Of a stretch of DNA of 64,000 bases, positions 24,042 through 26,359 are shown piece after piece. Numbering within the stretch: position 1 is the stretch's first letter; each line of letters starts with the position of its first letter. This DNA comes from Olleya sp. YS (GTDB lineage Bacteria; Bacteroidota; Bacteroidia; Flavobacteriales; Flavobacteriaceae). The stretch lies in NCBI RefSeq assembly GCF_029760915.1, contig NZ_CP121685.1, positions 2,939,001-3,003,000 on the forward strand, given 5' to 3'. The translations under genes and the position numbers were made by a program. A model generated the notes under the pieces. The model was not told the origin of the DNA. It saw only the letters and a program-made list of their open reading frames with translations, and did no database searches.

Positions 24042-24129
24042 TACATATTCTAAAACAGTAGATATTATTTTATTAAAAATAAATACTAATTTCATTCAAC
24101 TTCAGATATCAAACACTTTTATTAAACCA

Positions 24130-24158
24130 GTCGAAGTAATTAAACGATTTTCATCAAA
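24130..24158. repeat. Short repeat GTCGAAGTA..AAACG..TTTCAT, copy 1
   Basis: This stretch in the 24042-24302 gap matches 24972-25000 closely, with a few substitutions and single-base gaps. Both lie upstream of small genes (24303 and 25009). I see no other structure in this intergenic gap. Confidence 0.45.
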
Positions 24159-24302
24159 GACATTTTAATGTAATTAGAAAAACACCGACACATAACTCAC
24201 TGATTAGGTTGTTTTTAAAAATAAATTTAAAAAAACTATGTTTATAGTTAAGGAGTTTTGTCGACTTAATTGTTATATAAATGAATAATAAAATTAATAA
24301 AT

Positions 24303-24731
24303 ATGAAAACCTCAAATTTTAAACTACTTACAACTCTAACTGCATTGGTCTTACTTATTGTAACATTTTCATCTTGTTCTGATGACGATGAACCAATTGC
24401 TAACATAACCGTTAATGAAGGACCATCTGGAGATATTGGTGGCGATTTTACTGGAAATGGCGGTAATGCTTCTCGAATAATAAGTTGGACAAATAATTTA
24501 ACGACAGCTGACTACAATGCAGATATAACTACAAATGCATCTGGAACATTTAACATCGTAGTCGCAGATTCTGAAGGAACCATAGTGCTTAATAAAACTT
24601 TAAACGGAACAACTGAACCTGATAGTATTGATGGTGTAACTCAAGCAGGAGAACCCGGAAATTGGACTGTTACCATTACTGTTACCTCTTTCAATGGAGA
24701 TGGAAGTTATTCTTTAAGCGAAGGAAATTAA
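24303..24731 (+). CDS. Small hypothetical lipoprotein
   Basis: The 142-residue product starts with a long signal peptide ending FSSC (Cys25), followed by the acidic SDDDEP that Bacteroidetes use to export lipoproteins to the surface. The mature part is beta-rich (ISWTNNLTTADYNADIT, GTFNIVVADSEGTIVL, WTVTITVTSFNGDGSYSL), resembling pre-peptidase or jelly-roll beta sandwiches. No enzyme motif is seen. It may be a surface-exposed binding or structural protein. A strong terminator follows 12 bp after the stop. Confidence 0.7.
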   Translation: MKTSNFKLLTTLTALVLLIVTFSSCSDDDEPIANITVNEGPSGDIGGDFTGNGGNASRIISWTNNLTTADYNADITTNASGTFNIVVADSEGTIVLNKTLNGTTEPDSIDGVTQAGEPGNWTVTITVTSFNGDGSYSLSEGN

Positions 24732-24742
24732 TTAATAATTTG

Positions 24743-24774
24743 AAAGGCTATCTGATAATGATAGCCTTTTTTTT
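24743..24774 (+). terminator. Intrinsic terminator after the small lipoprotein
   Basis: The 10-bp stem AAAGGCTATC/GATAGCCTTT with a 7-nt loop is followed by a T tract. Confidence 0.88.
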
Positions 24775-24787
24775 AAAATAAACTACA

Positions 24788-24849
24788 GCTAACAAAAATT
24801 AGTAATAATTGTTATATCACATGACTACTAATAGCTAATACTGTTAAGC
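24788..24849 (+). other. Imperfect palindrome ending GTTAAGC, possible recombination (attC-like) site A
   Basis: GCTAACA...ATTAG at 24788-24804 can pair imperfectly with the arm that ends CTGTTAAGC at 24849. GTTAAGC fits the GTTRRRY core of integron attC sites. The tract is AT-rich, so chance pairing is possible. It matters because homology between the two pcm ends begins exactly at this GTT. Confidence 0.3.
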
Positions 24850-24869
24850 GAAACTTCAAAAAAACTTAA

Positions 24870-24962
24870 TTAATTCTTATCCTCCAAAAGCGGTACAAAT
24901 TCAGGCTTGACTTTATCAAAAAAATCAGCTAACTTCGTCTGACGTCTGATATAAAACACTTG
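24870..24962 (-). pseudogene. Remnant of a second, divergent pcm 3' end
   Basis: On the minus strand the last 30 codons read QVFYIRRQ..DFFDKV-KPEFVPLLEDKN and a TAA stop. The intact pcm downstream ends LFVRTS..EFGEFRFVPLLEDKN. The final eleven codons and the 3' flank to GTTAARCGAAACT are shared, while the upstream residues are only distantly similar. This is therefore the truncated C terminus of another pcm allele rather than a recent duplicate of the intact gene. It has no start and cannot encode an enzyme. Confidence 0.8.
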
Positions 24963-25000
24963 TACTGAGCTTGTCGAAGTATTAAAACGTTTTCATATCA
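24961..25000. repeat. Short repeat TGTACTGAGCTTGTCGAAGTAT and flank, copy 2
   Basis: The repeat abuts the broken 5' end of the pcm remnant. From 24972 on it matches 24130-24158. It may mark the deletion or insertion junction. Confidence 0.5.
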
Positions 25001-25008
25001 TATAAGTT

Positions 25009-25554
25009 ATGCATAATTACTTACTCATGTGGGAATGGAATTACATATATGGAGCAATCTTAATCAAGGATTTTAATAAAACCTTTGAAGTTATTGAATC
25101 GCTTAAAAAAGACAAGGAATATCCTTTCATTAATACTAATATGTTCAACTTCGGTGAAACTGAAATTCCATATTGCTATGATGATATAATTTTAACATTC
25201 GGAGCTACTTATAAAAATTTCGGCTATGATGAATCGGAATGGAAAATATTTATTTTAAAAATTGAGCATATATTAAGAAGAATAGGTTTTAAAAGTGCTC
25301 AATTTCATGCTTCAGGTGTCTTTGATGACGTAACATTATATTGGCATGATATAAGTGATGCGAGTGATGAAATAAATAAAAACTACCATACTAACGAATA
25401 TGACTTAATAAAAACCAATGAATGGTATTTTGGTTATGGTGAAAGAAATTTACATTTCCCACGATTAAAAACAAAGGATTATCCGAAACTTGAGTTGGTT
25501 TACCCTATTGATTATAAAAAAGATATTATCAGAGAATTTGAAGACCGAATATAG
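25009..25554 (+). CDS. Orphan hypothetical protein, candidate cassette cargo
   Basis: The 181-residue protein is soluble, with no signal peptide or membrane segment. It is rich in aromatic and acidic residues (MHNYLLMWEWNYIYGAILI, then YPFINTNMFNFGETEIPYCY). It has no motif I recognise. The size and composition resemble immunity-type or small stand-alone cargo proteins, but that is only an impression. It lies alone between a pcm remnant and a long palindrome that begins two bases after its stop. This is the usual gene-then-recombination-site order of an integron cassette. Confidence 0.65.
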   Translation: MHNYLLMWEWNYIYGAILIKDFNKTFEVIESLKKDKEYPFINTNMFNFGETEIPYCYDDIILTFGATYKNFGYDESEWKIFILKIEHILRRIGFKSAQFHASGVFDDVTLYWHDISDASDEINKNYHTNEYDLIKTNEWYFGYGERNLHFPRLKTKDYPKLELVYPIDYKKDIIREFEDRI

Positions 25555-25556
25555 CT

Positions 25557-25692
25557 ATGCACAACAACGTGTATGATTAATTGCTTTGGTCGTTGCTTAT
25601 TTAGAAAATTCCCTCGGAATTTTCTAGCGTTCGTTTTTGTTTACTAAATTAGTTGCTGAAACACGCAACTAACCATACACAAGACCGTTAAA
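25557..25692 (+). other. Long imperfect palindrome, attC-like site B
   Basis: The outer arms GCACAACAACGTGTATG (25559-25575) and CATACACAAGACCGTTAAAC pair through GTGTATG/CATACAC and AAC/GTT, with an unpaired spacer between. This is the R-spacer-L layout of attC. The right end GTTAAAC fits GTTRRRY; the left GCACAAC misses RYYYAAC by one base. Inside are two further hairpins: AGAAAATTCC/GGAATTTTCT and TTAGTTGC/GCAACTAA. At about 136 bp it falls within the size range of attC sites. No integrase gene is in the window. Confidence 0.5.
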
Positions 25693-25717
25693 CGAAACTC
25701 TAAAATCTTAATCTTCT

Positions 25718-26359
25718 TTAATTCTTATCTTCCAAAAGCGGTACAAACCTAAACTCACCAAACTCAGTCTTTTCAAATTCTTTTTGACTTGTTCTAACAA
25801 ACAACGTCATAATTTGTACATCATCACCAACTGGTATTACTAAACGTCCACCAATTGCTAATTGTGCTAATAATGGTTTTGGTACAAATGGTGCACCAGC
25901 AGTTACAATGATACTATCAAAAGGCGCTTCTTCTTTTAGCCCTTTATATCCATCTCCAAAAATTAGTTTTTTAGCTCTGTAACCCAGTTTTGGTAAAAAA
26001 CGACTGGTTATTTTAAACAGTTCTTGTTGTCTTTCTATACTAAATACTTTAGCACCAAGCTCGCACAACACAGCTGTTTGGTAGCCACTTCCTGTACCAA
26101 TTTCTAATACTTTATCACCTTTTTTAACTTGCATTAACTCGGTTTGAAAAGCAACTGTATAGGGTTGAGAAATGGTTTGGTTTGCAGCAATCGGGAAAGC
26201 TTTATCTTGATACGCATGATCCAAAAAACTAGAATCCATAAATAAGTGTCTTGGTATCTTGCCAATAGCAGTTAAAACTGCTTCGTTTGTGATGCCTTTT
26301 GCTTTTAAGACAGTTACTAGTTGCTGACGTAAACCTTGATGTTTAAAAGTATCTTTCAA
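25718..26359 (-). CDS. pcm: Protein-L-isoaspartate O-methyltransferase
   Basis: The enzyme methylates isoaspartyl residues in damaged proteins using S-adenosylmethionine so they can revert to aspartate. The 213-residue length is normal. The SAM-binding motif is VLEIGTGSGYQTAVL. The family pre-motif TISQPYTVAFQTELM and the post-motif FDSIIVTAGAPFVPKPLL are intact. The C terminus FVPLLEDKN is repeated in the remnant at 24870. The gene is alone on the minus strand, with the cassette-like insert directly beyond its 3' end. Confidence 0.95.
   Translation of the reverse strand: MKDTFKHQGLRQQLVTVLKAKGITNEAVLTAIGKIPRHLFMDSSFLDHAYQDKAFPIAANQTISQPYTVAFQTELMQVKKGDKVLEIGTGSGYQTAVLCELGAKVFSIERQQELFKITSRFLPKLGYRAKKLIFGDGYKGLKEEAPFDSIIVTAGAPFVPKPLLAQLAIGGRLVIPVGDDVQIMTLFVRTSQKEFEKTEFGEFRFVPLLEDKN

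Follow-up and report, generated by a model that had tools for sequence, protein, structure and literature searches.

The window, by which we mean the whole stretch of 64,000 nucleotides of Olleya sp. YS that was analysed, carries the resident gene pcm (protein-L-isoaspartate O-methyltransferase) and, convergent with it, a gene for an orphan protein that is directly followed by an imperfect palindrome. The features of this region are listed below, with a bar marking the point at which two sequences are joined.

24098..24162, + strand: degenerate docking site, copy 1 (resemblance, by eye)
24163..24843, + strand: possible second insert at the duplicated docking site, with a 142-aa gene at 24303-24731 (by eye)
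24843..24905, + strand: duplicated right half-site and pcm 3′ end, with the joint G24843|T24844
24906..25006, + strand: docking site, left half (dispersed repeat, 16 sites in the genome; empty copy in relative G108), with promoter-like TTG at 24907-24909 and TAACTTCG at 24930-24937 (promoter by resemblance only), hairpin arms at 24948-24957 and 24989-24999, then ATATAAG|
25007..25687, + strand: probable gene cassette of 681 bp between two G|TT joints (own 5′ start compared with own R″; folds)
25027..25554, + strand: cassette gene, 175-aa orphan protein MWEWNYIYG... (list of open reading frames, own-end rule)
25558..25692, + strand, folded strand bottom (-): attC-like site (covariance model, 141.8 bits; covariation; bottom-strand wobbles), with boxes R″ 25559-25565, L″ 25569-25575, L′ 25674-25680 and R′ GTT 25687-25689
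25688..25698, + strand: docking site, right half TTAAACGAAAC (TTAAAC(G/A)A after attC at 7 of 16 docking sites)
25718..26359, - strand: pcm (PF01135, E=6e-58)

The cassette protein matches no Pfam family above the cut-off. In the mechanical list its reading frame runs from 25009 to 25554, with a start codon that lies inside the left joint. The original prediction had this gene as the cargo of a cassette, directly 5′ of an attC-like palindrome, and pointed to similar ends behind orphan genes in other Bacteroidetes. The position of the gene is confirmed by the covariance-model match, and both the attC-like nature of the palindrome and the existence of a family are supported by what is found elsewhere in the genome and the genus. 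BLAST (E≤0.02) places the palindrome at 19 positions of the 3.0-Mb genome, the window copy included and some copies partial. Their surroundings differ, and the shared GTT is followed either by TTAAACGAAAC-like bases and another gene or, where the next cassette begins, by a new start (for example GTTGTGCAAC) that precedes an ATG by some 25-30 bases. The element occurs in all ten genomes of the genus, and a covariance model built from 12 of the genome's own copies, a search that had been proposed for the palindrome, was run over fetched loci totalling 477 kb and matched 123 elements (E≤0.05), one of them in the window.

Long co-oriented arrays, with one attC-like element per cassette, are found in the relatives. 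In G104 (contig C2, 1490-1576 kb) 67 elements extend over 86 kb, all in one orientation and with two gaps (24 and 6 kb). When two intervals of more than 3.6 kb are left out, the longest open reading frame of at least 80 aa lies on the array strand in 41 of the remaining 64 of 66 intervals and on the opposite strand in none, 23 having no such frame. Many of the intervals without a frame represent one cassette of about 355 bp. This cassette is strongly conserved, with at least 21 copies (21 were aligned) between gene cassettes in loci L112, L113 and L115 (G104 C2:1498-1558 kb), and is possibly a promoter or small-RNA cassette. Of ten cargo proteins of the array that were scanned, one is Eco57I/MmeI-like, a restriction-modification protein with 1060 aa (L112:3422-6601), and the others include an ion channel, a GNAT enzyme and an IrrE-like peptidase.

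In the G104 array each cassette begins, after GTT, with the reverse complement of the bases that precede AAC in its own attC. Counted from GTT, own start and own R″ agree over 5 or more consecutive bases in 60 of 63 cassettes (mean 6.6), whereas the start of the next cassette gives a mean of 1.4 against the same R″, with such runs in 4 of 63, and 2000 shuffles give a mean of 1.6 and a maximum of 2.5. The 355-bp cassette accounts for many of the 63; the 37 distinct pairs have a mean of 6.4, and 34 of them reach 5 or more. The eighth base is often, by eye, an A against a G, which is a G.T wobble of the bottom strand. This match fixes the joint at G|TT. Own-end complementarity is the prediction of a circle closed at G|TT, and it delimits each cassette without a model. 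The integron-like joint that had been proposed stands in so far as it falls at G|TT. Its proposed core, GTTRRRY, which is the core site consensus of canonical integrons, is found at 2 of the 67 joints in G104, where GTT is usually followed by cassette-specific bases. The docking-site half GTTAAAC does fit GTTRRRY.

In the window, the R″ box predicts a start GTTGTGCATAGCT (reverse complement), and the cassette's own 5′ start, GTTATGCATAATT at 25006, is the top-scoring place for it. Seven of the ten bases after GTT match R″, and two of the three misfits are bottom-strand G.T; the first base differs, and the joint would score 0 under the strict-run criterion used for the G104 array. Because the own-end match is best at 25006, the cassette is taken to be 25007-25687, with G25687|T25688 as its right joint. 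Among 11 solo cassettes of this genome examined by the same rule, the best own start lies at the docking repeat in six (L001, L002, L005, L006, L011, L012) and elsewhere in five (L004, L008, L015, L016, L017), with a docking repeat and a plausible start visible by eye in L008 and L015.

The original prediction had rested on two copies of GTTAARCGAAACT plus a pcm 3′ end bracketing the gene. Both copies are present, at 24843 and 25687, with a 38-nt core that is 89% identical, and the sequences to the left of the two GTTs are indeed unrelated. The left edge of the insertion at 24843 was not borne out, since own-end complementarity puts this joint at G25006|T25007. The docking region has been duplicated together with 63 bp of the pcm end, and the joint at 24843 would be the right end of a possible further insert (about 24163-24843) at the duplicated landing site. 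That insert was placed, by eye, by its position between docking copy 1 and G|TTAAGCGAAAC. It has no recognisable attC, the sole covariance-model match of the window being 25558-25692, and docking copy 1 (24098-24162) is absent from the BLAST matches by which the docking repeats were collected.

The repeat to the left of the cassette (24906-25006) consists of TTGACTTTGTC, then CTAACTTCG, a hairpin and ATATAAG|TT or AGAGACA|TT. Sixteen such docking sites were collected in the genome, each followed by what is by eye a cassette-like start; seven of them end, in the sequence examined, with an attC joined to TTAAAC(G/A)A. Their spacing would fit the Bacteroidetes promoter type, TTG / TAnnTTTG. A docking site would combine a promoter-like sequence with an attI-like joint, in a place without a recombinase. 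The motif GTTAAACGAAAC was also considered alone as a mobile end and rejected; it has only six exact sites in the genome, three of them at an attC, and the pattern read backwards has three sites. It gained meaning as the right half of the docking repeat.

The pcm locus differs among the species of the genus. G108 has an empty docking site (..TTTTTTATCAGAGAAATTAAACGAACC), the one case seen of the unoccupied pcm site that had been anticipated in close relatives. G102 has a different cassette, with a lipoprotein gene (MKNTLVLL..), and G105 a third (MKHSITFI..), both ending at TTAAAC in the same place. G106 contains a degenerate element (by eye), no docking site is found beside pcm in G100, G101, G103 and G104, and the contig of G107 ends at the locus. 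An empty site in one species and different cassettes in three suggest that cassettes are exchanged at a fixed site, which supports the proposal that a gene cassette, or something related to it, was inserted beside the 3′ end of pcm.

As single strands, both strands of the window palindrome fold better than 200 of 200 dinucleotide shuffles (z -3.0 bottom, -3.6 top). The RNAalifold consensus of 16 copies separates them, at -15.6 kcal/mol for the bottom strand versus -3.1 kcal/mol for the top. Of the 123 sequences, 78 that are less than 90% alike were compared. Cells of their outer stem number 1251 with Watson-Crick pairs, 211 with G.T on the bottom strand, 29 with G.T on the top strand and 58 others; two positions are near-invariant G.T (69 and 74 of 78 sequences). 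Paired cells make up 94.4%, and the covariation score is 0.329 versus 0.135 when shuffled and at most 0.071 with the partner slid, in an alignment fitted to the model and thus favouring structure. The excess of bottom-strand G.T and the covariation point to a conserved fold on the non-transcribed strand, as in attC, and consensus fold, wobbles and covariation agree with the layout R″-L″-loop-L′-R′ on a folded bottom strand. For the window copy the full attC stem is optimal only for the bottom strand of the circular form (-25.8); in the integrated copy the best folds on either strand differ from it. In canonical integrons the choice of strand is set by extrahelical bases. Folding of the bottom strand and a look for such bases had been proposed. 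The bottom-strand fold is seen in the consensus; in the alignment some copies have one extra base and others have none, the near-invariant feature being the two G.T wobbles. The attC arm TAGTTGC (window 25650-25671) also pairs with a nearby GCAACTA, giving a small competing hairpin that is common to several copies.

All nine relatives in the genus carry a tyrosine recombinase of a kind missing from the window's genome, where the query matches the XerC and XerD genes only; the cassette there would accordingly be a fixed remnant. The enzyme is 376-396 aa long in seven relatives, and open frames are short in G103 (185 aa) and G105 (188-205 aa). Short-frame copies lie near arrays at G104:C1:307716-308051, L106 (G105) and L093 (G103). 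The gene is located 0.5-10 kb upstream of the elements and co-directional with them in G101, G103, G104, G105, G106 and G108, and a recombinase frame followed by attC elements is seen in G104, G108, G103 and G100. Among 71 recombinases whose flank measures 900 bp or more, a putative attI-like G|TT start matched to a downstream attC follows 26, versus 3 of 71 control windows, and 21 of the 26 starts are 33-128 bp after the stop codon. The other 45 have no matched start; some of these are other XerA-like enzymes, and some have short flanks or no array.

The closest solved sequences are of the XerA type (4a8e and 5hxy, 229 and 225 bits), with which the recombinase shares its core fold, followed by IntI4 (2a3v, 207 bits). 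Four of the recombinases score 195-209 bits with TIGR02249 (cut-off 265), versus 117-139 for the resident XerC and XerD, and 203-231 bits with NF040815, the name of which mentions integron integrase and the cut-off of which (220) one of them passes. The TIGR02249 matches are split, profile positions of about 180-238 remaining unmatched, and none of 100 family genomes exceeds the cut-off. From the KG.KDR to the H.LRH motif there are 57-59 residues in 35 and 63 in one of the 36 measurable rows among 42 from Bacteroidota; the gap is 100 aa in six canonical IntI, the other 7 of 13 IntI-clade rows not being measurable. Judged by this spacing, the Bacteroidota recombinases lack the insertion of about 42 aa that is present in integron integrases. 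In PMC9668308 an IntI-specific domain located in this region is called necessary, and PMC8138268 describes the insertion as essential though not fully conserved in its integron-like subgroup. In a tree of 92 rows the IntI clade has 100/100 support and contains no Bacteroidota enzyme; constraining IntI and 53 Bacteroidota rows to one clade is not rejected (p-AU 0.179), and between one and two origins of integrons the tree and this test decide for neither. A tyrosine recombinase does stand at the head of arrays, as had been suggested, and differs from the suggested IntI type in lacking the insertion and in lying outside the clade.

Of the 20 recombinases in alignment A3, 18 have some 75 additional N-terminal residues, which L036 and L041 lack. 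These residues are predicted to form a domain of the order b-b-a-b-b-a-b (pLDDT 87.5), for which no Pfam family scores above its cut-off. We had presumed a HARP motif before the Foldseek search, in which 2fwr (XPB) ranked first and 4o66 (the HARP domain of SMARCAL1) fifth and sixth, the likeness being weak (E 0.2-0.6, TM about 0.5). The predicted domain is possibly HARP-like. Recombinases of 456-542 aa with apparent tandem copies of it occur in L216, L223 and L229 (Bacteroidales, Aquiflexum).

From comparison of sequences we consider it very probable that what lies beside pcm in the window is one gene cassette of the integron type, that site-specific recombination at G|TT placed it in a chromosomal docking site with a promoter-like sequence and an attI-like hairpin, and that it belongs to an integron-like system of Bacteroidota. 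The palindrome does lie directly 3′ of genes on the coding strand, and both of its strands fold, as might a transcription terminator or RNA element copied along by ordinary horizontal transfer. We give this explanation next to no credence, since the 211 bottom-strand G.T pairs would be A.C in RNA, versus 29 of the other kind, so that pairing is kept on the strand that is not transcribed, while the R″ box agrees with the far-off 5′ start of its own cassette and the joints fall at G|TT. It is also very unlikely that homologous recombination alone, between imported DNA with two pcm ends and the pcm locus, produced the region; the two bracketing pcm 3′ ends would be explained, but neither the G|TT joints elsewhere nor the own-end match. 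It may, nevertheless, be the source of the docking-site duplication.

Two further explanations accept mobility and differ about its agent. Solo cassettes may have spread within a MITE-like unit, in which a transposase moved the docking repeat, bounded by inverted ends (TTCGTTTAAC ... GTTAAACGAA), together with the cassette. The 16 dispersed sites with these ends, each before a cassette-like start, are what such a unit would leave, but the conservation reaches about 25 bp to the left of the inverted repeat, and the pcm site is empty in one species and differently filled in three; we regard this as improbable. The layout and logic of the system, the raised TIGR02249 scores and the p-AU value would all suit a degenerated canonical integron (IntI/attC) with ordinary CALINs (attC clusters lacking integrases) for arrays. 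Against this are the missing insertion, the position of the recombinases outside the IntI clade, the family genomes without a single score above the IntI cut-off, and the rarity of GTTRRRY at joints, and there is in our opinion very little chance that it is correct.

Returning to the integron-type cassette, the sequences show directly the arrays and their joints, the complementarity of own ends, the covariation on the bottom strand, sites that are empty or hold different cassettes, and recombinases heading arrays. Catalysis, strand exchange and promoter activity, and likewise the recombination of the window cassette, we infer from them. The system would have three parts: a tyrosine recombinase, some 300-500 aa long, that often carries the extra N-terminal domain and lacks the integron-integrase insertion; an attI-like joint, mostly 30-130 bp past its stop codon, followed by cassettes co-directional with the recombinase gene; and the cassettes, mostly of one gene and an attC-like site of about 120-200 bp, the bottom strand of which would form the hairpin. 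In the excised circle the cassette's own 5′ end would pair again with the R″ box and complete this hairpin. The recombinase would cut between G and TT and join the circle to attI, to a further attC or to one of the dispersed docking sites, the promoter of which would then drive the gene of the inserted cassette.

Sedentary chromosomal integrons possess IntI, attI and attC, with one-gene cassettes in arrays and a bottom-strand attC hairpin. The present system resembles them, for example the Vibrio superintegron, in its recombinase gene, attI, long arrays of one-gene cassettes, gene-less cassettes and a hairpin with R and L boxes on the folded bottom strand. Unlike IntI integrons, it has an enzyme without the insertion, outside the IntI clade and often with an added domain, a core of GTT plus variable bases matched to the cassette's own R″, two near-invariant G.T wobbles in its sites, and dispersed docking sites without a recombinase. 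Its recombinase gene is co-directional with the array, unlike that of Vibrio-type integrons. The window's genome, which keeps cassettes and short arrays without such a recombinase, resembles a CALIN, from which it differs in a core that is mostly not GTTRRRY and in several single cassettes, each in its own promoter-like docking site. We know of no link between recombinases of the XerA type, closest to these enzymes in sequence and core fold, and cassette arrays. The Treponema intI also reads in the same direction as its cassettes, according to PMC3607928; these are intI systems, and the R′ site of T. brennaborense given there, GTTAGGT, fits GTTRRRY. Gene-less Vibrio cassettes with promoter activity are described in PMC11014356.

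The IntegronFinder 2.0 survey (PMC9024848) lists one complete Bacteroidetes integron (Salinibacter ruber M1) and others in Chlorobi and Ignavibacteriae, and mentions that earlier only integrases, without cassettes, were known from Bacteroidetes. A review includes Bacteroidota among integron-bearing phyla (PMC8618304). In the open-access literature without preprints, as far as its accessible text goes, we found no report of this cassette system; a subscription paper or preprint may exist.

Recombinases with E <1e-66 were counted by hand in 115 of 395 genomes of the phylum, in which XerC/XerD-like enzymes score lower; not all of them head arrays. Linked joints are present at 17 of 34 loci tested and none at the other 17. 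A reverse-strand control for the detection of cassettes (182 forward, 136 reverse) was rejected because the test is symmetric, and first-order resampled sequences replaced it; 14 of 170 of these gave 2-4 joints, so that a locus with 2-4 joints carries no weight on its own. The joints of L180 are, by eye, unlike attC. Outside the family, the joints are clear in L184 and L185 at the level of the phylum, and in L169 and L170 at that of the class, the last two with small joint numbers, yet with attC and joints legible. The genomes of L184 and L185 (G279 and G443) could be from groups with already known integrons. Linked joints behind recombinases, uncollapsed and without control, number 13 in Rufibacter, 9 in Algibacter, 5 in Seonamhaeicola and 4 in Winogradskyella, and two linked cassettes are located on plasmid pls1 of Pontibacter kalidii, which has transfer genes. 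Thirteen phage records have a match at E≤1e-30; in no case is 80% of the recombinase covered, and identity is 32-38% in the ten matches listed.

The cassette system thus appears, on sequence comparison, to be widespread in Bacteroidota and to work like an integron with another enzyme and other sites. Conceivable, though on balance we lean against it, is a second, separately evolved integron system of this phylum, with a XerA-like recombinase in which a HARP-like branched-DNA domain would replace the IntI insertion, folded strands that would be read by G.T wobbles instead of extrahelical bases, and arrays together with dispersed promoter-bearing docking sites, the whole hidden from existing tools. 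Loading of cassettes also into the docking sites would then give each genome many one-cassette expression slots. The system would add a large unseen gene pool and a route of gene exchange. Here the recombinase is counted in more than a hundred genomes, one array runs to dozens of cassettes, one copy is carried by a plasmid, and one cargo gene is restriction-modification-like. Whether integrons arose once or twice would become testable, and the question is raised how folded single-stranded sites are recognised by a recombinase without the IntI insertion.

Related recombinases were also noticed outside Bacteroidota, in L233 (Undinarchaeales MAG), L236 (Spirochaetota MAG) and L239 (Firmicutes MAG), where contamination of the MAGs is possible; all three match the query from the N-terminal part onward, and in L236 there is an attI-like start that matches an element downstream. 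On pRL10 of Rhizobium johnstonii (L203) another related recombinase (36% identical) lies directly before an IS91-family transposase, where the enzyme type may serve a purpose other than integrons. Some elements of the IS110 group target attC, and an IS110 transposase is located inside the plasmid-borne cassette array of Pontibacter kalidii pls1 (L202:14568-15923).
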